A stretch of 64,000 nt of DNA from Anodontia alba (Eukaryota > Mollusca > Bivalvia > Lucinida > Lucinidae), in the NCBI GenBank assembly GCA_964016985.1, contig OZ024823.1, positions 35,321,687-35,385,686 on the forward strand, read 5' to 3'. Both the position numbers and the translations under genes were made by a program. The notes below the pieces were generated by a model, which was not told the origin of the DNA, did not search any database, and saw only the letters and a program-made list of their open reading frames with translations. Shown here piece by piece: positions 2,699-63,700 of the stretch (positions are counted from its first letter, which is position 1; each line of letters opens with the position of its first letter).

Positions 2699-4327
2699 GA
2701 CGCGTGTCTCGACCTATTTTGTTCTCCTCTAAGACGCCTAATAAACGGCACTTGTGAAGCGACGTTTGCACAAATACGTGGTGTTGAATACCTCTTCACA
2801 GCTCGGCTGTATCCAGTAGATGGATGGAGAAACATATTCAATGATGTGTTTACAGTTTTAGGGAGATTATCAGAATGGTTTCAGAATCTATTTTGGAATT
2901 TTCCAGAATACGAAAGCTATACGTTGGATTACGATATAGGACTTTGCAGTGTAGATCTTTACTCGACTGCGATAGATAATTGTTCTGTTGACTCTGTTTC
3001 CACTTGTAACGAGACCAATATTCATCACTTCTACGAGACTAAAGTAACATTTCAGATAGCGCAATGGCACAGTATTGATGATATTGTTAGACTGGTTTCA
3101 GAAATACAGACGTGGCAATTTAATATGTCATTTGATGAAGATATTTATTTATTCAGAATTCAAGAATGGGATTTTGGATACCGAGATCGTCCGTTCTCTT
3201 ATTCCTTGAAAGACTTTGACAGTTGTGAAATGAGCGCAAAACAAGTCAGGTTAACTAGGCAGAAGACATGTCCATTAGTTTCACTGTCCTTGTCTGATCA
3301 TGACTGCTTTGAGGACAACGTTGGACTGACCTGTCCATCTCAAAATATTACAGTGCGCGCTGGCAACTTCTTTTTCAGCAGCAACTATTCAAATATTTCA
3401 GTTTGCTCTGATGTTTATTTAGAAAAATTCACAGCAAAATCATCAGGTCATGCAACAACCTCTTCAAATGTTGCGATTATACTTTCTATAGCATGTTGTA
3501 CGATATCGTTACTGTGTCTTTTATTATCTTTTCTCACTTTCTGCCTGTTTCCAAGACTTAGAACAGTACCAGGTAGAAATAATATGGCACTTATATTAAG
3601 TTTGATAATTGCTCAAATGTTATTTCTTGTCAGCAGCTTTGGTCATTTAAAGCGTGGATCAAACGCGTGCAAAATTGTTGGGTTGTTGACACATTTCTCT
3701 TGGCTTGTGACAGTATTTTGGATGAACGTCTGTACTTTTCATGCCTTTAGGGTATTTACTGGAATGAACCGAACTATTGGAAGCGGCCGGAAAACATTTC
3801 TGGCGTACTCTGCTTACACGGTTGGTTTGTCTGTCTTACCTGTCTTAACAAATATAATAATATCTACATTATAATCAGATGACTTTGGTTATGGAAATCC
3901 TTCTTGCTATATCAGCTCAGAGAAAATGGTTGGCTTTACATTTGGGATACCAGTTGGATTTGTAATCATAACAAATTTGATCATGTTTCTGATTTTTATT
4001 GTAAAAGTAAAACGAGCTCCTACTGTAAACAAAGACGTTAAAAATGAGAGAAATGACATCATTATATTTGCGAAATTATCTTCTCTAACAGGGTTTACTT
4101 GGATCTTTGGCTTCATATACTCATGGACTGACCTTGAAGTGTTTTCCTGCTTGTTTATCGTGTTGAATGCGTCGCAAGGTGTCTTTCTATTCCTGTCCTT
4201 TGTTTGCAATAGGCGGGTGTTTGACATGTACCGGAATAGGTCGTTTGGTGTGACGTCAACCAGTAACACGTATAAAACACGTGTCACGGATGTAATGAAA
4301 TCAAAATCTGCTGAAGAAAAAGTTTAA
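2699..4327 (+). pseudogene. Last exon of a Methuselah/adhesion-like 7TM receptor with an in-frame stop
   Basis: The frame opens directly after a TTTTATAG acceptor at 2691-2698; the TAG itself is in frame, so coding starts at 2699. The ectodomain begins DACLDLFCSPLRRLINGTC and is rich in Cys and N-glycosylation sites, as in class B2/Methuselah-like receptors. Counting from 2699, TM1 is about residues 258-284, TM2 296-315, TM3 322-350 and TM4 366-390. A TAA at 3872-3874 (codon 392) then breaks the loop before TM5. The same frame stays open to 4325-4327 and encodes TM5 (GFTFGIPVGFVIITNLIMF), TM6 (KLSSLTGFTWIFGF), TM7 (FIVLNASQGVFLFLSF) and a short tail. No GPS cleavage motif was recognised. Everything except the one stop looks intact, so this is a very recent pseudogene, a null allele, a readthrough case or a base error. 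Earlier exons are not visible in the window. Confidence 0.85.
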
Positions 4328-5027: not shown

Positions 5028-5306
5028 CATCACGAAAACTTGCCTATATAATTTTGACCCCCTTAAACCCCACTTTTATATAGTAAAGCTGGGGTTTACA
5101 GGGGTATACATTATTTTTCTTATTTCTGCTCAAAAACATAGATTGTGGGTACTCGTTAGAACCGCCTCGGCGAGGCGGTTCTAACGAGTACCCACAATCT
5201 ATGTTTTGAGCAGAAATATGGAAAAATATTAGAGTTTTTCATCTGAAAATGTTCAGGATTTGGAGGTGAAATTTTCTATATATTTGCATAGGCGTGTTTT
5301 CGTAAT
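5028..5306 (+). mobile_element. FamA foldback element (type copy)
   Basis: The order of parts is as follows. A terminal CATCACGAAAACTTGCCTAT is followed by a TTTTGACCCCCTTAAACCCC block with its own small inverted pair (CCCCACTTTTA / TAAAGCTGGGG). A ~75 bp central palindrome contains GGGTACTCGTTAGAACCGCC and its complement. The element ends in GGCGTGTTTTCGTAATG. No coding capacity is present. There are 17 near-complete copies in the window, 11 plus and 6 minus. This is a MITE-like architecture; the superfamily is not established because no clear target duplication was found. Confidence 0.9.
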
Positions 5307-6169
5307 GGATGCAAAGCATCAATACGCCAGGAAACTAATCTGTCATGCATTAATAGCTCCCTATAGATCGTAGTATAGTGGAAAATGTTATAATTTATGA
5401 AAGGTTGTAATTATATAAATTATCGCAATACTCAACGATAAAAAAATTATAGACATTATCAGAGCTATGTAAAAAATCAACTATGATTGTGTTTTCTAGC
5501 CCGCATACATAATTACATGTCGCCATCCATAGCCTAGGCCGAACATATCAGAAATCATATATGTAGCATTGACTGGTTCCCTCACCCTATAGCTCAATAG
5601 TTCGCTTATAGAACACAGGAAACCAGTTTATATATATGTTTCGTTCTTTTCTCCACTCATAACGTTTTCCTTCGGCCCAAATCTTTCCATGCTTGAATAT
5701 CAAATTAAACTGTGTTATTAAACCAGCTTATAATCCGTTCGATTTGAGAATGCATATTTCCAATCGTAAACAAAGAAAAATATCTTTTGATTCTTCTTCG
5801 TAGTACGACGAAAAAAAAAAAACGAAATGAAAAAATTCAAACATGCAACAGCAACAAGCTCATTTCAGGTCGAATGGTCAAATTGGGGCTCCTACGGGAA
5901 AACTGCTCATTTCACTTTTAAATGAGCAAAACCCGCATTGCTACATTCATTCTACACAGTATTTCCCATTTTTTTCACTATGTTACCAATAGCACAGTTC
6001 TCTGCTACAAAAGTGTGACTTTGAATAATAATAAAAAAGTGGGGGTGAATAGTTATATTTAACCCCACTAAAAACCCCATAAAACTGGAAGAAAGCCGAT
6101 GTTCTCCGAATGCATACACATTTTACAAAAACAACCTCAAATAGATACGCCGGGCTCCAGACCAGCGTA
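5307..6169. other. No gene or classified repeat seen
   Basis: AT-rich sequence with scattered short ORFs only. Confidence 0.5.
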
Positions 6170-7486: not shown

Positions 7487-7765
7487 CATCATGAAAACAT
7501 GCCTCTACAATTTTGACCCCCTTAAACCCCACTTTTATATAGTAAAACTGGGGTTTACATGGGTGTTCATTATTTTTCTTATTTCTGCTCAAAAACAAAG
7601 ATTGTGGGTACTCGTTAGAACCGCCTCGTCGAGGCGGTTCTAACAAGTACCCACAATATATGTTTTGAGCAGAAATATGAAAAAATATTAGAATTTTTAT
7701 CTGAAAATTTTCATTTTTTGGTGGTAAAATGTTCAGTACATTTGAATAGGCATGTTTTAGTAATG
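7487..7765 (+). mobile_element. FamA element
   Basis: Full length, with termini CATCATGAAAACATGCC and GGCATGTTTTAGTAATG. It lies 83 bp from the next copy in the same orientation. Confidence 0.88.
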
Positions 7766-7848: not shown

Positions 7849-8130
7849 CATCACAAAAAAATGCCTATATAATTTTGACCCCCTTAAACCCCACTTTTAT
7901 ATAGTAAAACTGGGGTTTACGGGGGTATACATTGTTTTTCTTATTTCTGGTCAAAAACATAGATTGTGGGTACTCGATAGAACCGCCTTGCCGAGGCGGT
8001 TCTAACGAGTACCGACAATCTATGGTTTGAGCAGAAATATGAAAAAAATATCAGAGTTTTTTACCTGAAAAATTTCGGCTTTTTGGAGGTGAAATTTTCT
8101 ATATATTTGAATAGGCATGTTTTCGTAATG
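7849..8130 (+). mobile_element. FamA element
   Basis: Full length. The left terminus is slightly eroded (CATCACAAAAAAATGCC) and the right end is intact (GGCATGTTTTCGTAATG). Confidence 0.88.
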
Positions 8131-21905: not shown

Positions 21906-22181
21906 CATCACGAAAACATACCTATATAATTTTGACCCCCTTAAACCCCACTTTTATATAGTAAAACTGGGGTTTACAGGGTATACATTATTTTTGTTAT
22001 TTCTGCTCAAAAGCATAGATTGTGGGTACTCGTTAGAACCGCCTCGACGAGGCGGTTCTAACGAGTGCCCACAATCTATGTTTTGAGCAGAAATATGAAA
22101 AATATCAGAATTGTTTCTGAAAACTTTCAGTTTTTGGTTGTAAAATTTTCAATATATTTGAATAGGCGTGTTTTCGTAATG
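21906..22181 (+). mobile_element. FamA element inside gag
   Basis: Full length and well preserved; it interrupts the capsid reading frame described to its left. Confidence 0.9.
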
Positions 22182-22432: not shown

Positions 22433-22711
22433 CATCACGAAAACATGCCTATAAAATTTTGACCCCCTTAAACCCCACTTTTAAATAGTAAAACTGGGGT
22501 TTACAGGGGTATACATTATTTTTCTTATTTCTGCTCAAAACATAGATTGTGGTTACTTGTTAGAACCGCCTCGACGAGGCGGTTCTAACGGGTACCAACA
22601 ATCTATGTTTTGAGCAGAAGTATGAAAAATAATCAGGATTTTTTATCTGAAAATTTACATTTTTTGGTGGTAAAATTTTCATAATATTTGAATAGGCATG
22701 TTTTCGTAATG
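22433..22711 (+). mobile_element. FamA element inside gag
   Basis: Full length, with both termini clear. Confidence 0.9.
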
Positions 22712-23155: not shown

Positions 23156-23430
23156 TATCACAAAACGTAATAATATGGACCCCCTTAAACCCCACTTTTA
23201 TATAGTAAAACCGGGATTTACAGGGTATACATTATGTTTCTTAATTCTGCTCAAAAACTTAGATTGTGGGTACTCGTTAGAACCGCCTCGGCAAGGCGGT
23301 TCTAACGAGTACCCACAATATATGTTTTGAGCAGAAATATAAAAAATATCAGTTTTTTTATCTGAAAATTTTCAGTTTTAAAACGTAAGTGAATTTTTCT
23401 ATATATTTGAATAGGCGTGTTTTCGTAAAG
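23156..23430 (+). mobile_element. FamA element, eroded left end
   Basis: The left terminus is degraded (TCACAAAACGTAATAATATG). The right end reads GGCGTGTTTTCGTAAAG. Confidence 0.82.
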
Positions 23431-32705: not shown

Positions 32706-32761
32706 CCATTACCACTCTTTGGGCTAATTATTCAGACAACAAATTGATGATATTTTTCTTA
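32706..32761. mobile_element. FamB left part, interrupted by the DIRS element
   Basis: CACTCTTTGGGCTAATTATT ... GATATTTTTCTTA ends exactly where the DIRS starts; the other part resumes at 38,938. Confidence 0.8.
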
Positions 32762-32944
32762 TTTTAACTTCGTAATACATTAACCTATAGATAATGTGCT
32801 ATTCTATTCTGTTATTCACCCCCTCCACAGAAAAAACGACCTTTCAGTCGTTAGAAAGTCTTAATTCAGAAGGTCCCCTTAACAGTTACCTGTATGACGT
32901 AGTTCCTCCCGCTCAAATGATCACGTGTCAGTTTCTTTTCTGTG
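32762..32944 (+). repeat. DIRS left end: extension plus ITR
   Basis: The extension TTTTAACTTCGTAATACATT is followed by the ITR beginning AACCTATAGATAATGTGC and including CACCCCCTCCACAG and CTCAAATGATCACGTGTCAG. Confidence 0.92.
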
Positions 32945-33147
32945 GACTTTGAATGTTCAAGGATTATTATTCTGTGTTAGAAAAAATGGATTAAAATTAT
33001 TCTACACGGTTAAAATTTTTATATCCTTGACTTTCTCTGGTTCTATATTCACTCCTTCTACTATCTATGTACTTATTTTCGAAATATCGATCTTAGATTT
33101 CTTGTTTTCTCAATGTTAAATTTCTTCCTTTGTTTCCGCGTCAGTCG

Positions 33148-35343
33148 ATGCATTTCGCCCGCGGCAACTGTGGCCATTTAAAAGCTAAATGGGATACACA
33201 TTTATCTTGTCTAACTTGTAATTCTTGCACACGTATCTCTCCGTGTTATATTTGTAGTTCCTGGACAGAAAAAGTTTGGAACCTAGCAGAAAGAAGACGC
33301 CTTCATGCTACTAGAAAATCAGTTATGACGCAGAAGAGAAAACAGAAGAAATCAAAGAAATCCAAGAAGTCCCAGTCAGACATGTCTGACAACGGGACAG
33401 TTGATGGGAGCACCGCCCCTCATAGCTTTACTGCTCAGGGCAGGACCCATCAAGGTGGCAGCCTGGCGGACTTAGAGTCTGACCGGGCACTAAGCCCACC
33501 AGTCACCAGTCACCAGTCAACCAGTCACCAGTCAACCAGTCACCAGTCAACCAGTCACCAGTCATCCAGTCACTGGGCAACTTATCTCCGTTCATCCAGT
33601 CGCCAGTCAACCAGTCACCAGTCAACCAGTCACCAGTCAACCAGGCACCAGTCAACTAGGCTCCAGTCAACCAGGCATGGGTTTACAGTCATTCCCGTAT
33701 GACCTACAAACACAAATTCCGCCTGGTTATATTCCTATAAATGTGCCTGTACAAAGCTACGCTCCGTCCATAAGTAGCCATATTTCACAGGGTAGTGTCC
33801 ACAGACTATCCAATGTCTTTATTCCTGGTTACGAACGTTCTAATAGACTAGAACTTCCTAATCCAGCTTCTTCCTCTAGACAGATTATTCCACTCGAACC
33901 TGATTTTTCGCAGGTCTCAGATCCGAGTGTAATGATTGAGCCTCCAAATTCAAATGATTTATCTATCTCCAGACCTTCAAGGAAGGATCAGTCTAAAAGA
34001 GAGCATAAATCTAAAAAGAGAAGAAGACATCGATCGTCCTCTTCTTCTATCTCTACTTCCAGATCAGACTCTTTGAGTTCTTCTCGGCGAAAGAAAAATT
34101 CAAAGAGATCTAAGCACTCTCATAAAAAGAGAAGAAGACGATCGATGACGCCTTCTTCTTCATCAAATTCCTCCCAATCTCAACTTGACATTGGTAGATA
34201 TACAAGGGCTCATAAATCTCCCCAGGTTGTTCAAACGCCAACTCCAATACAACCTGAGGAGACTAATTTTAGTCAAATCACAAATCAACCTATTAATTAC
34301 GATCAGATTCAGCCGAATCTCACTCAACAGAATAAGGAGTCAGATTCGGAAACTGAATCCGAAGTCTGGTCATTTGATCGTGCGATTAACGAGGTCTTCC
34401 GGCTTCTTCCTCCTGAGTTATGCCCCAAAACTCAGCAGGATCAAGCTCCATTAAAACCTCTCTCTGGGATCGAACAATTAATGGAGTCTCGTTCCACTCC
34501 ATTACTTGTCCTCCCACAATCCAAATTAGTACAAAATACAACAAAATATATTCAAAATAGACTAGAATCGGACAAATGTTCAAGAGATTGGATTTGTCCG
34601 CAAAGCTTGGTTTCGGCTCTTGCTCCGACTAAATTCTACAAGAGCCAAAACCAATATTTGCCAACTGATAATATCCCTCAATTAGAAGCAGATGCGTCGC
34701 TCCTAGACATTTCTATAAAGGAAGAGCTTCTATTCCGCTCAAGAATCTAGAAGCATGGGAAAGGAAGGCTAGAAAACTAGTCGCTATTAATTCTCATGCT
34801 GATCTATTTTCTTCAGCTGCCTTCCTTTCATTACAACAGGAATCGATGTCGGTTGCGGCCCTTTCCAGACTTCTGGAGGCCGTAGCCAAATCGATTAAAC
34901 ATGCTACTGCCATGTCTACACTTTTAACTACTGAATTATTCCAAGCTAGGAGGGACGCAGCCCTAGCTTCGTCTAAACTACTACTCGACAATTCCACATA
35001 CGAGTTAAGGAACGCTCCTATTAACTCAAAATCCTTATTTGACGGCAGGATAAAAGAAATAGCTAAATCAAACTTTGAAGCTCAACAGCAAAGGTTTCTA
35101 GCTTCTACATCCATTCAGTCACAATCTCATTCTTATAAGCCTCCTTCGCAGAGCAGAGCTTTCAAGATACCTAAATATCCTGCTAAACAAACAACATCCA
35201 GACCTAAACCTACGCAGTCGTATAGGTCCAAAAATATTCCTCAAAGCTCATCTTCTCACATTAAGAAAGATAATATCAAGAGGACTGGTAACATCCGTCA
35301 GTTCCCCTCCTCTAAACCTGCCTCTTCCTCCGCAAGATTATGA
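33148..35343 (+). pseudogene. DIRS ORF1 (gag-like), two frameshifts
   Basis: The start MHFARGNCGHLKAKWDTHLS is followed by a Cys/His cluster (C-x2-C-x2-C ... C-x2-C) at residues ~8-38, characteristic of DIRS ORF1 N-termini. A basic KKSKKSKK stretch and a tandem region with CACCAGTCAACCAGT units (33,503-33,680) come next. The frame changes at ~33,490, where the repeat starts; the second frame reads TSQPVTSQPV and then GMGLQSFPYDLQTQIPPGYI, with an Arg/Ser-rich KKRRRHRSSSSS segment. It shifts back near 34,725, after which LEAWERKARKLVAINSHADL continues to the stop at 35,343. Function in the family: nucleic-acid-binding structural protein. Confidence 0.75.
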
Positions 35344-35344
35344 A

Positions 35345-37422
35345 GGCCCGCCCTTTCCACTGCCTGCTCTTCCGCTCGCGGACACTCCAGTGGGAGGACG
35401 ATTGGCCCATTTTGCGGAAAAATGGGAGGAAATAACAGACAACAAATGGGTCCTCTCTATCGTACGAAACGGATTCAGGATACCATTCATCAAATTCCTC
35501 CTTTGTCATCTGTTCCGATCAGAATGAGTCAATCCTCCTCCCCGTTTCTCAGAGAAGAGATCGAAAATCTTCTCAACAAACGGGCAGTGGAAAGGGTACA
35601 GAATCCGGAAACTCCCGGCTTTTATTCCCGGATATTCCTTGTGCCAAAAAAGAACGGAAAGTTTCGTTTAATATTAGACCTGTCTTTATTAAACCGTTAC
35701 ATAGAGAAACAAGCATTCAAAATGGAGACAGTCAAATCGATAAGACAAGCGATGAGACTCAACGATTGGGCTGTCTCCATAGATTTAACAGATGCATATC
35801 TACATGTGCCGATACATCGTCAATCCAGGAAGTATCTTCGTTTCGTACACGAAGATCAAGTATATCACTTTTCGGCCCTACCGTTCGGAATGTCCCTAAG
35901 TCCGTTAATTTTCTCGAAACTGATGGACGTTATTGCAGCTTTTCTACGCCAACGTGCCATATCAGTTTTTCCATACCTAGACGATTGGCTGATAAAAAAT
36001 CTGATTCACAACCGTCTGATTACTCAGACAAAGATTTGCATTCAAACTATTCAAAGCCTAGGTTTTCTGCCAAATCTCAAGAAGTCAGACCTCTTTCCTG
36101 CTCAGAAATTCACCTTCATAGGTATGGAATTTCTGACGCAACAAAATTTAGTCAGGGTTCCAGCGGATCGTGTACAGAACCTAATTCTAACAATCAAGAA
36201 AATAATGTCAGCAAAACATGTATCGGCACGAACTTTCCTTTCTCTTTTGGGCAAACTCAGTGCTGCAGCAGACCTTGTTCTCCTGGGCAGACTGCACTTA
36301 CGTCCTCTTCAGATGTGCCTGCTGTCAGTCTGGAAACCTCATATTCTTCCTCTCGATCACCCGATCTCGATAAACGGCATGATTCGATCTCACTTACAAT
36401 GGTGGATAAACCCCATTCGATTCGAGACAGGGACTTCAATCCATCCTCCAGACCCCAAATTCTTCCTTTATACGGATGCCAGTCATTACGGATGGGGAGC
36501 TCATTTAGAGCCGACAACACTGTCCTTTCATGGTCGCTGGACAGAAAACCAATCCCAGCTCCATATCAATATGTTAGAAATGATGGCCATACGATTAGCA
36601 CTGAAACAAGCCAAAACATTTATTCACCATTCTTGCATCATGATATCCACAGACAACACAACGGTGGTCTCATATATCAACAAACAGGGTGGCACTCATT
36701 CCCCCAATCTTTGCGTAGAAGTTTGGAAAATACTCAATTGGTGCCTGGAACAAGACATAGTTATCAGAGTACGTCACATCCCAGGCAAATTCAACATTCT
36801 TGCAGACCGCCTCTCAAGACTAGACAAACCTATCAAGACAGAATGGGCTCTGGATCAAACAGTTGCGAATTCAGTATTCCATATGCTCAACTTCCCAAAT
36901 GTGGATCTGTTTGCGACAAGATTCAACCACAGACTCCCATTATATGTCTCTCCAGTACAAGACTACAAAGCACTAGTGATAGATGCCCTGTCCATGGACT
37001 GGAATCATCTTCATGCATATGCTTTTCCTCCTTTTATTCTGATACCTGCTGTTCTAGAGAAAATCCGACAACATCAGTGCAGAATAGTTCTCATAGCTCC
37101 GTTCTGGCCACAGCAACAGTGGTTCTCAGAACTTCTTCTTCTATTAGTGTCAGCTCCGATTCGTCTGCCACTAATTCCAAGACTACTGACTCAATCCAAA
37201 GGAAGATTTGTACATCAAAACCTCCCAATTCTCGACCTTCACGCTTGGGAGTTATCAAACAATCAATCAGAGATAAGAAATTTTCACAAAACGTTGCAGA
37301 TTTTGTCTCCAGATCAAGAAGAGCATCTACACAAAAAGTCTACGATGCAAAATGGACCATCTTCTCTAATTGGTGTCATACAAAAAAGGTTAATCCGATC
37401 TCGGCCCCTATTACAGTTATAG
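35345..37422 (+). pseudogene. DIRS reverse transcriptase / RNase H
   Basis: The conserved entry VGGRLAHFAEKWEEITDNKW and VLSIVRNGFRIPFIKF lies in one frame (35,390-~35,488). The polymerase proper continues in the next frame from PPLSSVPIRM, consistent with one lost T near 35,487. RT landmarks: FLVPKKNGKFRLILDLSLLN, SIDLTDAYLHVPIH (block A), LPFGMSLSPLIFSKLMD (block B), and the catalytic YLDD at 35,974-35,985. RNase H: LYTDASHYGWGAH (first Asp at 36,475), LEMMAIRLAL, ISTDNTTVV, HIPGKFNILADRLSR. A C-terminal DLFATRFNHRLPLYVSP / AYAFPPF domain typical of DIRS Pol follows. The ORF without the entry begins at ATG 35,422. Apart from the shift the enzyme looks intact. Confidence 0.88.
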
Positions 37423-38333
37423 CCGATTTCTTAATCTTTCTTTTTTCGGAAAAGAAATGTCAGATTAGTACTATTAAAGGTTATAGATCTATGATCTCTA
37501 ACACTTTAAAATTCAAAACTGGTAATAGAATCGGATCTAATCCAGTTTTATCTGAACTTATCAGATCCTTTGAACTTCAACGACCAGTACAAAGATCTCT
37601 TACACCTAAATGGGACTTATCATGGGTTTTAGTATGTCTACAAAAACCACCTTTTGAACCTCTTGATAAGGCTTCTAAATTTCACGTTACTATTAAGACA
37701 GCCTTTCTCTTAGCTCTTGCCACTGCTAAAAGGTGTAGTGAAATACATGCTCTAGCTATGGATTCACAACATTTAAGATTTAATCAATCTGATGGTTCAG
37801 TTTCCTTGATTCTTAAATCTGGTTTTTTAGCAAAAAACCAGCTTCCTTCTGTTAAACCAGATCCTATTGTTGTTCCTAGTCTTGCTCGAATATGTAAATG
37901 GGAACATACTGACAGACTTCTTTGCCCCGTTAGGGCTCTGAAATTCTATCTCAAAATGACTAGCTCTTATCGCCAAAATAGAACTAGACTTTTTCTTCCT
38001 ATTAAAGGCAATAAGGATGTCTCTAAAGATACTATCTCCAGATGGATATCTTACACTGTTAAACTTGCCTATAGGAAACTCACTAAACGAGATATCTCTT
38101 TCCTTAAAATCAAAGCTCATGAAGTTAGAGCTCTTTCCTCTTCTTGGGCTTTCTTCGACAAAGTTCCTCTCAATGATATACTTCAAGCAGCGGTTTGGAA
38201 TAGTTCATCAACTTTTGCCAAATTCTATCTCAGAGACATGTCTCAACAAGCACAGAATCTCCAAAGTTTGGGCCCCATTGTAGTGGCACAAAAAGTGGTG
38301 GGGGGCCAACAGCAATCAGCTATGGATGTGTAG
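37180..38333 (+). CDS. DIRS tyrosine recombinase
   Basis: Homology is readable from about RLGVIKQSIRDKKFSQNVAD (37,240) to the stop at 38,333. Catalytic residues are visible: Arg in AKRCSEIHAL (37,731-37,733), His and Arg in KAHEVRAL (38,118-38,129) and the nucleophile Tyr in KFYLRDM (38,226-38,228). The N-terminal SAM-like core-binding part is RRASTQKVYDAKWTIFSNWC. The frame is a third one relative to RT and is open without a stop from ~35,766, so it overlaps the polymerase ORF by at least 240 bp and potentially by 1.65 kb. The role is integration of a circular DNA intermediate; the product is expected in the nucleus. Its start codon is unclear, since DIRS recombinases are often expressed from an overlapping frame. 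This is the one ORF of the element with no visible lesion. Confidence 0.9.
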
Positions 38334-38574
38334 ACAACGTCAACAGCCCCCCTAGACCTGATGCTATACTAGAGAGGTACTAATTATATCTTTATTATAT
38401 ATATATGTTAACCCTGGATTACTTTATCCTTGGTTAAAGGATCTTATTATTGCCTTAAGCACTAATTATGTCCTCATTATATATATATAAAAAATAAATC
38501 CTTTTATTAAGCCTTAATTCAGAAGTTGGGACTAACTTATTAGGAGAAATCCTCCCTCCTATTCTACAAATTCT

Positions 38575-38668
38575 AGCACATTATCTATAGGTTAATGTAT
38601 TACGAAGTTAAAATGAAGTTTTTTAAAAGTAAAACATATTTTAACGAGTAATACTTAACCTATAGATA
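38575..38668 (+). repeat. DIRS internal complementary region
   Basis: AGCACATTATCTATAGGTTA ... ACGAAGTT is the complement of the left end, directly joined through AAAA (38,610-38,613) to AATGAAGTTTTTTAAAAGTA ... CTATAG, the complement of the right end. Confidence 0.93.
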
Positions 38669-38729
38669 AGTATTTATCGTCCCACCTCCCTTCCCTCGCT
38701 CCTTTCTCCTAATTGTGTATTGTTTTACA

Positions 38730-38937
38730 CATAAAAGAAACTGACACGTGATCATTTGAGCGGGAGGAACTACGTCATACAGGTAACTGTTAAGGGGACC
38801 TTCTGAATTAAGACTTTCTAACGACTGAAAGGTCGTTTTTTCTGTGGAGGGGGTGAATAACAGAATAGAATAGCACATTATCTATAGGTTAAGTATTACT
38901 CGTTAAAATATGTTTTACTTTTAAAAAACTTCATTTT
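38730..38937 (+). repeat. DIRS right end: ITR plus extension
   Basis: The inverted copy of the left ITR (CTGACACGTGATCATTTGAG ... TATCTATAGGTTAA) is followed by the private extension CGTTAAAATATGTTTTACTT ... ACTTCATTTT. Confidence 0.92.
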
Positions 38938-39791: not shown

Positions 39792-40067
39792 CATCACGAA
39801 AACACGCCTATATAGTTTTGGCCCCCTTAAACCCCATTTTTATATAGTAAAATTGGGGTTTACAGGGTAAACCTTATTTTGTCTTATTTCTGCTCAGAAA
39901 CATAGATTGTGGTACTCGTTAGAACCGCCTCGTCGAGGCGGTTCTAACGTGTACCCACAATCTATGTTTTGAGCAGAAATATGAAAAATATCAAATTTTT
40001 ATCTGAAAATTTTCATATTTTGGTGGGATAATTTTCAGTATATTTGAATAGGCATGTTTTCGTAATG
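39792..40067 (+). mobile_element. FamA element
   Basis: Full length; termini CATCACGAAAACACGCC and GGCATGTTTTCGTAATG. Confidence 0.9.
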
Positions 40068-40528: not shown

Positions 40529-40806
40529 CATTACGAAAGCACGCGTATTCAAATATATTGAAAATGTCACCACCAAAAACTGAAAGTTTTCAGATAAAAA
40601 TTCTGATATTTTTTCATATTTCTGCTCGAAACATAGATTGTGGGAACTCGTTAGAACTGCCCCGCTGAGGCGGCTCTAACGAGTACCCACAATCTATGTT
40701 TTTGAGCAGAAATAAGAAAAATAATGTATACCCCTGTAAACCCCAGTTGTACTATATAAGAGCGGGGTTTAAGGGGTTCTAATTATATAGGTATGTTTTC
40801 GTGATG
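40529..40806 (-). mobile_element. FamA element
   Basis: Full length, directly after the T-rich run; centre GAACTGCCCCGCTGAGGCGG has several arm mismatches. Confidence 0.88.
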
Positions 40807-41924: not shown

Positions 41925-42203
41925 CATCACGAAAACTTGCCTATATAATTTTGACCCCCTTAAACCCCACTTTTATATAGTAAAACTGGGGTTTACAGGT
42001 GTATACATTATTTTTCTTATTTCTGCTCAAAAACATAGATTGTGGGTACTCGTTAGAACCGCCTCGCCAAGGCGGTTCTAACGAGTACCCGCAATCTATG
42101 TTTTGAGCAGAATATGAAAAATATTAGATTTTTTATCTGAAAACTTCCAGTTTTTTATGGTGAAATTTTCAGTATATATTTGAATAGGCGTGTTTTCGTA
42201 ATG
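41925..42203 (+). mobile_element. FamA element
   Basis: Full length; CATCACGAAAACTTGCC to GGCGTGTTTTCGTAATG. Confidence 0.9.
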
Positions 42204-43211: not shown

Positions 43212-43513
43212 CATCACGAAAACATACCTATATAATTTTGACTCCTTTAAACTCCACTTTTATATAGTAAAACTAGGGTTTACAGGGGTATACATTATTA
43301 TTCTTATTTCTGCTCCAAAACATAGATTGTGAGTTCTCGTTAGAACCGCCTCGCCGAGGCAGTTCTAACGAGTACCCGCAATCTATGTTTTGAGCAGAAA
43401 AAATGAATAATATCAGAATTTTTATCTGAAGATTTTCTCTGTTTTTTTTTTTTTTGTTTTTTTTTTTTGTGGTAAAATTTTCAGTATATTTGAATAGGCG
43501 TGTTTTCGTAATG
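43212..43513 (+). mobile_element. FamA element with T-rich insertion
   Basis: Termini are intact; a T/G homopolymer at 43,440-43,470 expands the right half. Confidence 0.88.
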
Positions 43514-45510: not shown

Positions 45511-45792
45511 TCAATACGAAAACATGCTTATTGAAATATACTGAAAATTTTACCACCAAAAAGTGAAAATTTTCAGATAAAAAATTCTGATATTTTTCAT
45601 ATTTCTGCTCTAAACATAGATTGTGGGTACTCGTTAGAACTGCCTCGACGAGGTGGTTCTAACGTGTGCCCACAATCTATGCTTTTGAGCAGAAATAAGA
45701 AAAAAATAATGTATACCCCCGTAAACCCCAGTTTTACTATATAAAAGTGGAGTTTTAGGGGGTCAAAATTATATAGGCATGTTTTCGTGATG
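45511..45792 (-). mobile_element. FamA element
   Basis: Left terminus shortened (CAATACGAAAACATGC); right end GGCATGTTTTCGTGATG. Confidence 0.88.
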
Positions 45793-49839: not shown

Positions 49840-50117
49840 CATTTCGAAAACAAGCCTATTTAAATATACTGGAAATTTTACCGCCAAAAAATGAAAATTT
49901 TCAGAAAAAAAAAATCTGAAATTGTTCATATTTCTGCTTAAAACATAGATTGTGGGTACTCATTAGAACCGCCTTGCCAAGGCGGTTCTAACGGATACCC
50001 ACAATCTATGTTTTGAGCAGAAATAAGAAAAATAATATATACCCCTGTAAACCCCAGTTTTATTATATAAAAGTTGTGTTTAAGGGGTCAACGTTATATT
50101 GGCATGTTTTTGTGATG
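49840..50117 (-). mobile_element. FamA element
   Basis: CATTTCGAAAACAAGCC to GGCATGTTTTTGTGATG; centre GAACCGCCTTGCCAAGGCGG has a compensated change in both arms. Confidence 0.88.
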
Positions 50118-51137: not shown

Positions 51138-51795
51138 CATCACGAAAACATACCTATATAATTTTGACCCCCTTAAACCCCACTTTTATATAGTAAAACT
51201 AGGGTCTACAAGGGTATACATTATTTTCTTATTTCTGCTCAAAAACATAGATTGTGGGTACTCGTTAGAACCGCCTCGGTGAGGCGATTCTAACGAGTAC
51301 CCACAGTCTATGTTTTGAGCAGAAATATGAAAAATGTCAGAATTTATTATCTGAAAAATTTCATTATTTGGTGGTAAAATTTCAATATATTTCAATGAGA
51401 GATAGCAGTAGTTTTTTCTATTATCTCCCTTGATGGGTAAAGTGCAAGGTAGACCAAACACAAACTAGGTCTTTCTAATTGGAATACTCTAATTTTATCA
51501 CAGATCCTCAGTGGAATTAAACTTATATTTAACTTTAAAATTTTCCACTTACATATGAAAGATTTATTAACATTATGTATTTTATTGCCTTGACAATGTT
51601 TCTTTTTGATATTTTGGTAGCTTTACTTACATATGACCACTTATGAGTCAGATTTCTCAAGGTAAAAGTAGCTACCCTTAATAGAGGTATTAATGATAAT
51701 ATCAGAGGAATCCAATTAATTGGACCTGGTTATTTACAGAAAGTACTCAGGGGAGTTAACTGACTGCTATCTCTCATAGGCGTGTTTTCGTAATG
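51138..51795 (+). mobile_element. FamA element split by another TIR element
   Basis: The left 257 bp runs to ATATATTTCAAT and the right terminus AGGCGTGTTTTCGTAATG resumes at 51,778. Confidence 0.88.
51397..51774. mobile_element. ~380 bp TIR element nested in FamA
   Basis: GAGAGATAGCAGTAGTT at left against GAGAGATAGCAGTCAGTT on the complement of the right end. AT lies on both sides, and removing the element with one AT restores FamA. Non-coding. Confidence 0.8.
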
Positions 51796-58719: not shown

Positions 58720-59661
58720 CCTAGGTTCTTTAGAAAAATCTTGATGAACTGTGATGCATGCTAATGTTTAGAAAACGTACAGTTTACAATGGAAACATGA
58801 GATTTAAGATTTTATGTTCTGAACCAGAAAGAAGAAATAAAAGAAGAGTTAACACAGGACAAGGAAAGGTTGTGTTATGCAAGCTCTTTTGACATATTAA
58901 CCCTTATTTCACCTTTTAGTAACTTGTAAGTGTATTGGTACAATGCGCATTGTTTGTGTTTTGTTAAGCGTCTTACTAGTGTGTTGTTTCTACAGTGCAT
59001 TGTTTGCGTCTTGTTTAAAAGTGTTTTGTTTCCATTTTGTTAATGTATCTTGATTGCGTTTTGCTTAGTTTTGCTTAGTGTTGTTGCGTGAAATGAGGTA
59101 ACTTGACGGATTTACTAAACAAAGTTTGTCAGGATGACACCACCAGATTGTCGTTTGCAAATATTCAGTGAGGCTACCCAATCTGGAAAGTAGACTTCAC
59201 AAAAACAAAACTAAACTCAACAGGAATTCCTTTAAAACAAAGACTGTTTTAAATTGTAACTTTTTATCTAAAACTATGCTTTACAAATGGTTACAATAAG
59301 CATGCAAAGATAATGAAAAGAAAACAAAACAAAAATGACACATAAGAGAAATACAAGTGGCTAACTTAACCAATGCCAGTCTTTGCCAGTAAACTAAACA
59401 GAAAGTCTGGGCAAAATTAAAATTTGGCACTAAGGGGTCTACGCTAAAAGGCACTAAAACTAAAACAACATGCAGGATTCAGAGCCAAACTAATGGTAAA
59501 AGGAAGGGGTGAAAAGTTAGAAAGATAGTCTGGAACTGTTTTGCTTTATTTATCTTGAACGCACTCCAGAGCACTTCGAATATTCAAGAACTCCCTATTT
59601 GTTTGACGATCAATAAAAATTTAAAGAGAGAAAAAAAAAAGGCAAATTTAGGAAACTGTCT
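58720..59661. other. AT-rich, no ORF
   Basis: Possible polyadenylation motifs exist on both strands: AATAAA at 59,609 plus, and its complement TTTATT near 59,543 for a minus transcript. No exon seen. Confidence 0.4.
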
Positions 59662-59759
59662 GATCATTCAGTAGACTCAAGCCAGGGTGCAACCGACATG
59701 CACTTTGGAGTGAAACCAACATTCACGCCTCATAATCCCAGTGAGAGGACTGAATGATC
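59662..59759 (+). ncRNA. Structured element, array copy 1 (98 nt)
   Basis: The outer stem GATCATTCAGT / ACTGAATGATC is perfect (11 bp), with inner CTCA / TGAG pairing. Two hairpins GTGCAACCGACATGCAC and GTGAAACCAACATTCAC each have a 5 bp stem and a 7-base ACCRACA loop. Putative RNA; no known family recognised. Confidence 0.55.
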
Positions 59760-59860
59760 TGTAAATATCAAAGAATTTTCTACACTTTCCGAAAGTCACA
59801 GAAAATTGAACTTCTGGGGGAAATGCTAAAAAATAGGGAAACAAACAAAAAAAAATGTCT

Positions 59861-59958
59861 AATTATTCAGTAAACTCAAGCCAGGGTGCAACCGAAATGC
59901 ACTTTGGAGTGAAACCAACATTCACGCCTCATAATCCCAGTGAGAAAACTGAATAATT
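59861..59958 (+). ncRNA. Structured element, array copy 2 (98 nt)
   Basis: The outer stem is AATTATTCAGT / ACTGAATAATT, again perfect. Two base pairs differ from copy 1 on both sides. The interior is nearly identical to copy 1, with loop ACCGAAA in the first hairpin. Confidence 0.55.
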
Positions 59959-60207
59959 GTGTTTCGTTATTCTCTTTTTTCTTATTAATCAAAAAATGGG
60001 ATGCAGATAAACTGTGACCTGGAATGCAGCTCTGTCAAGAGAAATAAGAAATTTGCTGTCCTTAAATGCTTGATCTCTGACAAAATAAGATTTTACCCAT
60101 ACTGAGGAAAGAGAAAGGAAAAATAAGAATAAAATTCTCAGCTGTTAATAATTTATAGCAAACTGACAAAACTGAAATTTCAAACATTAGTCTCTTACAT
60201 TTTTGGG

Positions 60208-60306
60208 GATTGTTCAGTAAATTCATTCATGTAGTGCAACCAACATGCACTATGGAGTGAAACCAACATTCACGCCTCAGTCTCTGGCTGAACAAACTGA
60301 ACAATT
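60208..60306 (+). ncRNA. Structured element, array copy 3 (99 nt)
   Basis: Outer stem GATTGTTCAGT / ACTGAACAATT, 10 Watson-Crick pairs plus one G-U on the plus strand. The inner stem is TTCA / TGAA where copies 1 and 2 have CTCA / TGAG. Both ACCAACA-loop hairpins are kept. Confidence 0.55.
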
Positions 60307-60528
60307 TTATAACCCCTCTAAAAGATGTGATGCTAATAGTTTCCTCAAGTATAGGCTACAAATTTTGTGCATCATCAATACTATATAAAATCCCAAGCAA
60401 TTGTTTTAGTATACCCCTTTATATACTTAACTAGAAATAAACAACAATAATAATAAAATCCGAGCTGTTCATGAACAGATTCTACAATATCAGAATATTT
60501 CACAACTGAATACAACACTTTAGCCTAC

Positions 60529-60620
60529 TGTTCAGTAAATTCAAATCCAGGTGCAACCAACATGCACTTTGGAGTGAAACCAACATTCATGCCTCATATT
60601 CCGGCTGAACAAACTGAACA
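60529..60620 (+). ncRNA. Structured element, array copy 4 (92 nt)
   Basis: Outer stem TGTTCAGT / ACTGAACA (8 bp), inner TTCA / TGAA. The second hairpin ends ATTCAT, making a G-U closing pair if transcribed from the plus strand. Confidence 0.52.
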
Positions 60621-60666
60621 ATATTTAATGTCTGTTCAAAATATCAGTCAACCTATATATTAACTC

Positions 60667-60755
60667 GACACAGTATGCACACAAGGCTTTCCATGAAACC
60701 AACATTCACAGTGCTTCACAACATTCACATGTCAAGTGAAACAACAAGCAGTGTC
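60667..60755 (+). ncRNA. Diverged fifth copy
   Basis: GACAC / GTGTC ends enclose a TGAAACCAACATTCA hairpin and TTCACATGTCAAGTGAA. It resembles the others in loop sequence and layout only. Confidence 0.3.
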
Positions 60756-63700
60756 CATACATGCATGTACTTTTCAAATACTACAAAATAATTAAGTAAA
60801 TATTTTCCCAAAATAGTTCTAAGATATTTTCTAATGTATTTATACAAGAATTCAGCTCAGTATTAATTTTATAAAATTATTTAAAATTAATTTAGCTTAT
60901 TAAATTCCAGAATAAGTAAATATCTTACTTTGATTCCAATTTCCAAAGCCAAAAATAAAAATTAATTAAAAATTATATCAGAATGAAGAGCTGTAGTTTT
61001 AGTGGTAACAGTTAGGAAGCTGGGAGCAGAATGGCAAAAACTGGCAATGAATCTGTATATAAAGAGCAGAAATTCCTAAGCAATCACATGACATTGGTCA
61101 TTTTACAAATAAGGGAATTGCATAAGACTTTAGACCAGTCCATTTTTCAGAGGTGTGTTATCCTCACTGTCACTGACAAGTCTTGAAGTTAAAAACGTTT
61201 ACTTATATTAAAAATATCGAGAATAGTTTCCAATGGCTGGACTACGCAATTACCCAATCAAGTAAAAAGACATTTATTTCCTTCTGCATTAAATATTTAC
61301 TGCTCTGAAACTCTGTGCAACCCTTTGTTTTTAATTAATATTAATCAGCCCACTAAATTTAAAACATTACCAACAGTCTATTAATAACATAGAAAATGAA
61401 ATATTTATTAACTGTCTAGTAGAAAGACATTGCAAACCAGCACCATATTTGCATTTTACTATTTAAAAATTAAGTTTTCTACCTAGCTAACAATGCAGTA
61501 GCAGCTCATAAAATCAAATTTTCCTATGCACTATTTTTTCCTTAAATCTGAGAAACCTGGAGATTCCTACACTTAGCTCATTAATATTCATAAGCTGTCT
61601 GTTAATTTTGGGATGTTGCCATTTTTTTGGAATTATTTTGCTAAATATTTTGGAATTAAGGTATTAGCCTTCATAATTTCAGTTTGTATATTAATTGTTT
61701 CACTACATCTGAATCTGTTATAAAAGTTTTGCAACAGCCAGTTTCTTGAAAAACTTTATTTGTTCTCAAAGTTCCCAGATAGAAAGGAATCTGGGTCAAT
61801 TTATAGCCTATAAATAGATTCTGCTAATGTAAAAACAAATCTTATAATTTGTCAAAAAACAGTATATACTGCATGAAATCACTTAAAATAGATCTTTAAT
61901 TTCCAATTTACAATCAGTTCAGCACTCAAACACTTATGAAAAAATTCAGAAAATCAATATATTGATTTTGCTATCCTAAAGTCAAGGTCAGGTCAGTGCA
62001 GAGAATCATGAATGAAATTCCTTCTACACAATTGGTTCTAAAAATAGATACACCATTACTATACACTAAACCTTTGGAATGATGCTGGTATTACAGTGCA
62101 CACAACTCTTTATCATTCAGGTCAATTTATGTACATGTACCTATAACTCCAAGATCATGAGAAAAATTGCACTTTAATCTGGGATTCCTGGATAAGAAAA
62201 CCAGCTTGCATTCACATAGATACTTTTGTCACAAACTACTAATTCACTAAAACTAAACAAATAATAAAACAGTACAATAGTCCTGAGCCTGCTAAAGTTT
62301 GATGTCCACTGACAGTGACATTTTAGACACTTTTTTCAAACCTACAACAGGAAAACTAACTGCTAGGTCTTTATTGAATTATCTTTCTTTATAATCATCA
62401 ATGTGGAAAAAAAATAAATAAATAAAATAATAATAATCATAAACAACAAAACAAATTAACCTAACAGGCTCGTGGCATAACGAATAATCGGTGACAGATA
62501 GACCACAAAGTGATCACATTAAAATTCAGGTCCACAACAATGCACCCTTTTCCAAAAGAAAAAATGTATAGGGAATGCATTTTTTCTGATTTCGTCCCCG
62601 AAATCCATATTCTTAATTTCAAATTTAATCATTAAATTCCTGTGATCATTTTGAATTTACATCAACAATGTTCAGTTAAAATATTTACATCAGTATGTTG
62701 GCTGGCACATATGGACTAAAATACTCTTTTGGCATATGCTTATGAATTTTTTCCCCTTGTATATGATTGTCAAAATATCAGTTAACTAACAGCTACCTTG
62801 ATACCACTGAATCAGCTAGGGAATAAATGTGCAAAACAAAATGACTAGGTTTGCTGTTAAAAATCACAACATTAACTGGCAAACAAGCAAGTAAAACAAA
62901 GAGAAAACTCTTGAGTATGTATTTGTCACATTCTGTGCCAACCAGAAATGGTTAAACATCAATAAACTCCTTTTAAGTATGCAATCCTACCCAAACCTAC
63001 ACGGCATGCCATATATAGGTACTTACTATCAGGCCAAACCTTACAAATAAAATATCCACCAAATGCTTCATTTGAAACCTAGTCCATAAATGTATATATA
63101 TATTTTTTTAATTTGTTTTGTTTTGTAGTTTAAATGAATTTGAAGCAACAGACTAAATGCTTCTCAAGAGTAAAAGGACTAGGGCATAGTTGAACATTTA
63201 TAGGTATTCAAAATAGTGAATCTTTCTTTTGAAATAAGATAATTTTCAGAATATTCAAAGCAGATGAAGATTTATGCATGACACGTATTTTGGCTATATG
63301 CACAACTACTATTACATAAACATAAACATTTACTAAAATCTCTGTGATATGCAATATATATGCACGGCTACGCCATCAGCATAATACAAGATAGGCTCAT
63401 GTATGTTTTTGAACACAATGTGGTTGAGTGTTTGTCATTAACAATTTAACAAAATTGTCAACAACAACAAACACTTAGCTTCAATATAACCAGGGAATAA
63501 TCAGGCCTATATTACTCCCTAATCTTTGTTATGGCCAAATGCAATGGACTTAAGTCTGGTAACTTCTTGTAAGTCATTCTATTACTTATTCACCGTGCCC
63601 ATAACTTACAGTAATTATAGGATTGATTTGCAGCTGGCATAACATACACCATTTGCAAACATTGTAATAGTAAAAATAATAATACTAAAACAAAAAATAT

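Follow-up and report, generated by a model that had tools for sequence, protein, structure and literature searches.

Small RNA viruses carry packaging hairpins dispersed over many sites, with a common loop motif on variable stems. Plant Ty3/gypsy elements have tandem repeats in LTRs and UTRs, including arrays with unit exchange inside a large LTR element. To our knowledge these repeats have not been described as constant-loop hairpins, and how animal Ty3/gypsy elements select their own RNA for particles is poorly known. The MPMV CTE, a retroelement RNA fold, uses internal loops of one long stem. Its loops bind NXF1 according to an excerpt of PMC11379458, retroviral Gag reads structural motifs in the leader region as described in part of PMC12789967, and a purine loop is reported for MMTV packaging in an excerpt of PMC8096270. 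A text search of a library of papers found neither the core letters nor the loop string (ACCAACA) of the locus described here, and nothing pertinent on LTR tandem repeats combined with RNA structure.

The locus lies in a 64,000-nt stretch, C3:35321687-35385686, of the genome of the bivalve Anodontia alba; this whole stretch we call the window. Four elements of about 98 nt each follow one another in the same orientation with repeat spacings of 199, 348 and 317 nt; their loop letters are of the ACCRACA type on the window plus strand.

59662-59759, minus strand (that of gag-pol, and putatively the folded one): element c1, closing stem GATCATTCAGT/ACTGAATGATC in plus-strand letters, hairpins 59687-59703 and 59710-59726
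59861-59958, minus strand (that of gag-pol): element c2, closing stem AATTATTCAGT/ACTGAATAATT, hairpins 59886-59902 (loop ACCGAAA) and 59909-59925
60208-60306, minus strand (that of gag-pol): element c3, closing stem ATTGTTCAGT/ACTGAACAAT, hairpins 60234-60250 and 60257-60273
60527-60624, minus strand (that of gag-pol): element c4, closing stem TGTTCAGT/ACTGAACA, hairpins 60551-60567 and 60574-60590
60694-60708, minus strand: solo hairpin TGAA[ACCAACA]TTCA, 4-bp stem, without closing stem

An earlier note on this DNA had proposed four such elements, each with a closing stem and two ACCRACA-type hairpins, and RNAalifold with the c1-c4 alignment as its sole input recovered that fold: an outer stem of 11 bp, a 3x3 internal loop, an inner stem of 4 bp, a hairpin H1 of 5 bp that is prolonged by an extension containing G-U pairs, and a hairpin H2 of 5 bp. 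The proposal that stem bases change in pairs between copies was borne out as well, with double changes at 5 of the 30 pairs, in a thin sample of four related copies. Pairing reached 98.3% of 116 cells, compared with 93.1% when partners were shuffled (none of 500 shuffles was as high) and 21-41% when partners were slid, showing that the complementarity of c1-c4 is not due to chance. Simulation p-values for c1-c4, which assume that c2 is ancestral and the copies are independent (p 0.2 for the single step from c3 to c4), were not leaned on. Conservation is uneven across the alignment: 4 of 46 columns vary in the core and 15 of 17 in the linkers (Fisher 4e-9), with 9 of 30 in the outer and inner stems, and this is the pattern a folded RNA predicts. 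In c3 and c4, H1 and H2 differ from each other at two positions only, which pair with one another (C-G in one hairpin, A-T in the other). Scanning the window with a covariance model built from c1-c4 returned those four and the hairpin at 60694-60708 (E 3.2; folding z of 60680-60760, -0.96), so that the suspected fifth element comes down to a single 4-bp hairpin without closing stem. Fold stability of c1-c4 was not used as evidence, since 117-350 of 2,792 background windows lie equally far or further below their own shuffles and palindromic repeats abound in the window.

The array belongs to the LTR of a Ty3/gypsy (Metaviridae) retrotransposon of about 18 kb, which runs beyond the window on the same contig (C3).

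59082-62539, minus strand: left-hand LTR copy, 3,458 bp, the 3' LTR in coding sense, delimited by the repeat edges against the second LTR and the copies on C12 and C10
62540-64000, minus strand: first 1.46 kb of the internal region, on the polypurine-tract side; the element continues to C3:35398720
C3:35395265-35398720: second LTR

The length of 3,458 bp was read from the ends, and LTR comparisons were run with 3,459. Identity between the two LTRs is 99.7% across 2,739 nt and 99.4% across the final 720 nt; they end in TGTTG...CAACA (TGTTGCG...CACAACA for the window copy on the plus strand), and target duplications of 4 bp flank the element on C3 (GTGT) and one on C12 (ACCT). The gag-pol frames between the LTRs read on the window minus strand. 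Pol contains, in this order, the Pfam domains PR (residues 104-199), RT (493-653), RNaseH (716-844) and integrase (1042-1212); two weak gag/capsid Pfam matches fall below the curated cut-offs, one just and one well, and gag has one CCHC zinc knuckle, CX2CX4HX4C. By inspection, the PBS adjoins the right-hand LTR and the polypurine tract the left-hand one; we take the primer tRNA to be Leu. In coding sense the array is located about 0.6-1.55 kb ahead of the 3' end of the LTR, an AT-rich sequence in which TATA-like and AATAAA matches are weak.

Other copies of the family appear rearranged. Three successive LTRs at C12:54156957-54189475, spaced by about 14.5 kb, have ACCT outside the first and the last, which looks like recombination between copies. 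Two LTR copies at C2:83526439 and 83536528, about 10 kb apart and in opposite orientation, have an RT of this family between them, which points to an inversion. In the C3 element itself, the stretch of about 3.6 kb from the pol end to the LTR (L011:6226-9844) has frames of about 130 aa only, and a Pfam search of it gave no match.

Several further features were found in the remainder of the window.

2699-4327: 7tm_2 (secretin-family GPCR) sequence split by one stop, same-frame stretches covering profile positions 6-134 and 146-249
32760-38937: DIRS/Ngaro-like retroelement (class by our own reading), RT and RNaseH frame 35344-37422
5028-5307, 7487-7765, 7849-8130, 21906-22181, 22433-22711, 23170-23428: MITE-like family, first part
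39792-40067, 40529-40806, 41925-42203, 43212-43513, 45512-45792, 49840-50117, 51138-51396: MITE-like family, second part

The DIRS/Ngaro-like element has 97% identical inverted repeats (32760-32944 and 38728-38910) and an identical inverted 60-mer (38610-38669 and 38878-38937). Of the 120 relatives listed in a protein search with 35344-37422, the few with names came from clam-symbiont assemblies (Candidatus Thiodiazotropha), perhaps representing host DNA, which would fit a bivalve source. Members of the MITE-like family are about 280 bp long with an internal palindrome of about 115 bp and are scattered in both orientations, none lying beyond about 52 kb among the matches listed. A six-frame Pfam scan of the last 15 kb of the window, with stops as filler residue, gave one match, below the cut-off.

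Scattered genomic copies with TIR-like ends had been named in the earlier note as the mark of a MITE. Copies are indeed numerous, with at least 68 matches to c1 and its flanks in the 1.86-Gb assembly, many of them paired or tripled about 14.5 kb apart, but they do not look like a MITE. The alignment to the LTR extends well past the elements in 29 of the 30 array loci that were fetched; L038 aligns over 227 nt only (c1 and its neighbourhood) and L039 over about 780 nt. A search with a covariance model made from the four copies, as the note had advised, yielded 109 matches in array orientation in these 30 loci. Exactly four elements are present in 22 loci, five in L016 and L017, and fewer in six, including L032, which is cut by the region bounds and has two more elements just outside. 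For comparisons across copies we used an alignment, A4, of 33 of the 61 distinct rows drawn from 72 hand-listed matches among the 109. Its pairing percentages lean high because broken or chimeric copies are omitted (the second element of L033, L035:1508, L039, L040:974, L041:1003, L030:1651 and others).

Hairpins with a similar loop are also found in the leader. Under a strict rule, a perfect stem of at least 4 bp around ACC-N(1-2)-ACA, the element's own leader (PBS to gag) contains five and the window LTR eight, compared with dinucleotide-shuffle means of 0.007 and 0.013. A relaxed rule, allowing an empty loop middle and demanding Watson-Crick pairs at 3 of the first 4 positions, finds eight in each of the four leaders (L012, L014, L015, L017) and none reversed. 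The leader stems are GACT, GAGACT, GATC, GGACT and AGGCT. The predicted hairpins form two twin types that each occur twice, giving four twin units. One type differs between its duplicate units by an A-T to G-C double change (GAGACT/AGTCTC versus GAGGCT/AGCCTT), and the other has its own closing stem. The type without closing stem folds weakly (z -0.97 and -1.45, the second unit being only partly formed), and the GATC hairpins have a rival 6-bp register with a different loop. No strict hairpin was present at window positions 1-59081 (dinucleotide-shuffle mean 0.075) or in 30 RT-centred loci, 7 of them of the same family, where a single relaxed match was seen; the scanned 3' stretch of the element had no hairpin.

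Ten relatives match the element's RT at 80-84% identity, and many others do so at less than 60%; of the ten, five (L072-L076) were examined. The LTR part of the 84% relative L074 (C3:30585400-30589900) has no blastn match to the window LTR, and its leader aligns to that of the window family in pieces of 71-85%; since the leader is partly alignable, its GATC hairpin is shared by descent and not an independent case. The covariance model finds one full element in the L074 LTR, at E 1.6e-7 with filters switched off, and a second, weak one at E 0.16. By eye, the full element has the outer stem TTCAGC/GCTGAA and the hairpins ATACG[ACCTCACA]CGTAT and GGAGTAT[ACCACACA]ATACTCC: many stem pairs are changed relative to c1-c4, the hairpin stems are fully paired and the loop ACC...ACA is kept. 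L074 contains ten strict hairpins, seven in the LTR part and three in the internal part (dinucleotide-shuffle means 0.010 and 0.007), and none on the other strand. Eight of the ten make up four twin pairs, a configuration absent from 200 mononucleotide shuffles. Among the close relatives, hairpins are thus present in the window family, L074 and L075 (on C13; two by the strict rule and five by the relaxed one, with the same orientation with respect to RT) and absent on either strand from L072, L073 and L076, one subfamily at 80-83% RT identity (4.5 kb around PBS and LTR), and from the leader L077 (2.3 kb towards gag) of one of these three. Since they are absent in a subfamily nearly as close by RT, the hairpin modules were gained or lost within the clade.

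In LTR and leader alike the hairpins face one way with respect to gag-pol, which points to an RNA made from one strand; because they also occur in the leader, the sense strand is the obvious candidate. As gag-pol lies on the window minus strand, the loop reads UGU-(N)0-2-GGU in genomic RNA. We infer that this sense RNA is the folding strand, a reading that part of the evidence contradicts; a fold of the window plus strand is no longer preferred. The earlier note had taken G-U pairs to fit the plus strand, a claim that fails with the 33 rows of A4, where outer and inner stems read on plus show 10 G.U and 22 A.C cells, favouring sense by 22 to 10. The H1 extensions favour plus by 43 to 0, the count over distinct hairpins for the strand pair is 6 to 4, and all four elements have lower z scores on plus. 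Alignment energies, calculated with a different covariation scoring from the RNAalifold folds used for double changes, favour plus for four rows (-11.3 on plus, -8.3 on sense) and are neutral for 33 rows (-7.7 and -7.3). In minimum-energy folds, the sense strand forms both hairpins in c1-c3 and neither in c4; the plus strand forms both in c1 and c2 and H1 only in c3 and c4. The element at L074:3629-3737 forms both hairpins on plus and one on sense, while z of the L074 units is slightly lower on sense. Both closing-stem units of the leader fold in sense into the closing stem with both hairpins (-18.3 and -17.1 kcal/mol), whereas the other strand reaches -11.3 and -12.6 kcal/mol without that shape; z is nearly equal between the strands (-2.2/-2.3 versus -2.0/-2.2).

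The location of the array, its repetition, the near-constant loop on changing stems and the one orientation relative to gag-pol are direct observations. That a similar loop recurs on different stems, both in the leader and in a relative, supports the earlier argument for selection on a single-strand fold, and does so better than the four copies could; we regard a selected single-strand fold of the retroelement as very probable. The module would consist of two short adjacent hairpins, usually within a closing stem, that display a similar loop; the LTR contains four such modules and the PBS-to-gag leader four twin units. That loops stay nearly fixed while stems change suggests a partner that reads the loop and needs only its open display, and the presence of many copies arranged as twins points to multivalent binding. 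The site between PBS and gag, together with a zinc-knuckle Gag, makes packaging or dimerisation the first choice and export the second. Several of the exposed GGU loops of sense RNA would then be bound together, with the element's own Gag and its one CCHC knuckle as the most likely binder, and the bound loops would mark full-length RNA for packaging and/or dimerisation. Judged from sequence, a Gag packaging signal has a little less than an even chance, and we would say the same, just short of even, of the array being one block of cis-acting RNA modules that are bound several at once, most likely by Gag. Somewhat more tentatively still, about 16 twin-unit UGU-(N)0-2-GGU hairpins over LTR and leader of this metazoan-type LTR retrotransposon might form a multivalent RNA recognition code that marks the genomic RNA; stems would be free to change and loops nearly fixed, and the hairpins might be gained or lost between related subfamilies, a part of the proposal that we hold with the same reserve.

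The same modules might instead be bound by a host protein and serve as a constitutive-transport-type export, translation or stability element, in which the twin loops hold a dimeric factor. Unspliced retroelement RNA needs an export route, twin similar loops suit a dimer and the modules are present in the LTR as well as the leader; there is an LTR-derived retroviral precedent, and other export elements have multi-stem-loop folds (PMC11379458). The cluster between PBS and gag, however, occupies the classical packaging site, and L012 and L074 have no Rfam match, and we consider the export reading unlikely. At gathering score, Rfam 15 gave no match in the window, L012 or L074, which agrees with the earlier statement that the array belongs to no known family; a permissive search of 59600-60800 gave six sub-threshold matches, all far below their gathering scores. 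A tRNA scan of the window found none. A phage collection and IMG/VR gave no match except one 17-mer, in which only the hairpin scores with the covariance model. In prokaryote genomes a single 19-mer matched, of which again only the hairpin scores with the model; it lies in apparent coding sequence and was taken as chance.

It might also be possible, with a low probability, that the array has no function: palindromes would have spread by duplication, and hairpin-templated mutation, either in replication or in reverse transcription, would have kept them complementary. Many palindromic repeats are present in the window, and exchange within the array is evident, as L016 and L017 each contain at least one chimeric unit, c2-like on the left and c1-like on the right. 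The changes also follow the duplicates. Double changes separate c1-c4 at pairs 7-105, 10-102, 11-101 and 21-91; within one positional class, kept double changes in A4 amount to two cells, both in decayed copies (A-T at 7-105 in one c1 and A-T at 10-102 in one c2). Covariation runs between the positional classes and hardly inside a class, where changes in A4 mostly break pairs, as expected of dead copies. At pair 10-102, only 2 of 9 c1 rows have C-G and 5 of 9 have C.A; the H1-extension pair 31-51 is not preserved in older c3 rows, and RNAalifold retains double changes at only two pairs of A4. In comparisons to the window LTR, divergence is lower in elements than in spacers (p < 0.05) at 5 of 29 loci (L019, L035, L037, L038, L040); elements are never significantly less diverged than the remaining LTR, and in L016, L017 and L033 they are more diverged. 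Three well-covered diverged loci give about 9% for elements, 16% for spacers and 11% for the remaining LTR, the difference between elements and remainder not being significant. Conservation of the elements, taken alone, is only moderate support for selection. An array without function would not account for the one orientation, nor for a loop that stays almost constant while leader and relative place it on different stems. A further chimera at L033:1141-1250, c2-like on the left and c4-like on the right, has an outer stem that is no longer fully matched and looks like a deletion between units. Tandem duplication together with flanks was rejected, the spacers being at most marginally alike.

At the DNA level, the array could present dyad sites for a transcription factor in an LTR promoter or enhancer. 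LTRs often bear repeated enhancer units, GTGMA-N7-TKCAC is a dyad, array size varies, chimeric units occur in L016 and L017, and the strand evidence for the fold is mixed. In the leader and L074, however, the half-sites change and the middle stays, the opposite of what a dyad site would show; the loops found all point the same way and are seen again in the leader, and a closing stem with arms about 80 nt apart covaries. We therefore regard DNA sites as very unlikely.

We find a MITE hardly credible, and likewise a tandem cluster of host genes for small non-coding RNAs: sharp edges at the inverted repeat, hardly similar flanks of c1 and c2 and direct repeats of 4-5 bp at these two would suit a MITE, but the direct repeats fail at c3 and c4 and all fetched loci except L038 lie in clear LTR sequence, and for RNA genes the copies have neither a shared motif at a fixed distance up- or downstream nor a consistent T-run after them. 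Upstream words shared between the copies were considered as a sign of such a gene cluster and rejected; they are A-rich and not at a fixed distance. The case shows that a covarying "orphan" RNA array can be a retroelement signal, so a surrounding element should be looked for before such an array is put forward as a host ncRNA family.

For the proposed modules of the retroelement RNA, sequence comparison by itself already indicates a defined loop. The question becomes directly testable, as many natural stem variants and a related subfamily without the hairpins are available for comparison. If the recognition code is true, it would be a new packaging or export architecture in Metaviridae, and the versions in LTR, leader and sister elements would amount to a mutagenesis series provided by nature.

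The tandem stem-loops of roX and the A-repeat of Xist are repeated folded modules whose functions are redundant within one RNA (PMC4881525, in excerpt). Those are host lncRNAs and not retroelement RNA. We know of no sequence relation between them and the array. CTEs, such as the MPMV CTE and the MER11 CTE of SERV-K, are folds of retroelement RNA, one of them LTR-derived (part of PMC11379458); in contrast to the MPMV CTE, the loops here are terminal and present in many copies. The packaging sites of small RNA viruses are spread through the genome, whereas the hairpins described here lie in LTR and leader, with no strict one in the RT-centred loci or the 3' stretch. Retroviral Psi consists of leader stem-loops, some with G-containing loops, that are read by a zinc-knuckle Gag, and likewise there are leader hairpins here, predicted stem-loops standing between PBS and gag in all four leaders. 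The differences from Psi are the loops of 6-8 nt, the number of about 16 hairpins in twin units and the presence of modules in the LTR as well, with Gag as their putative binder.
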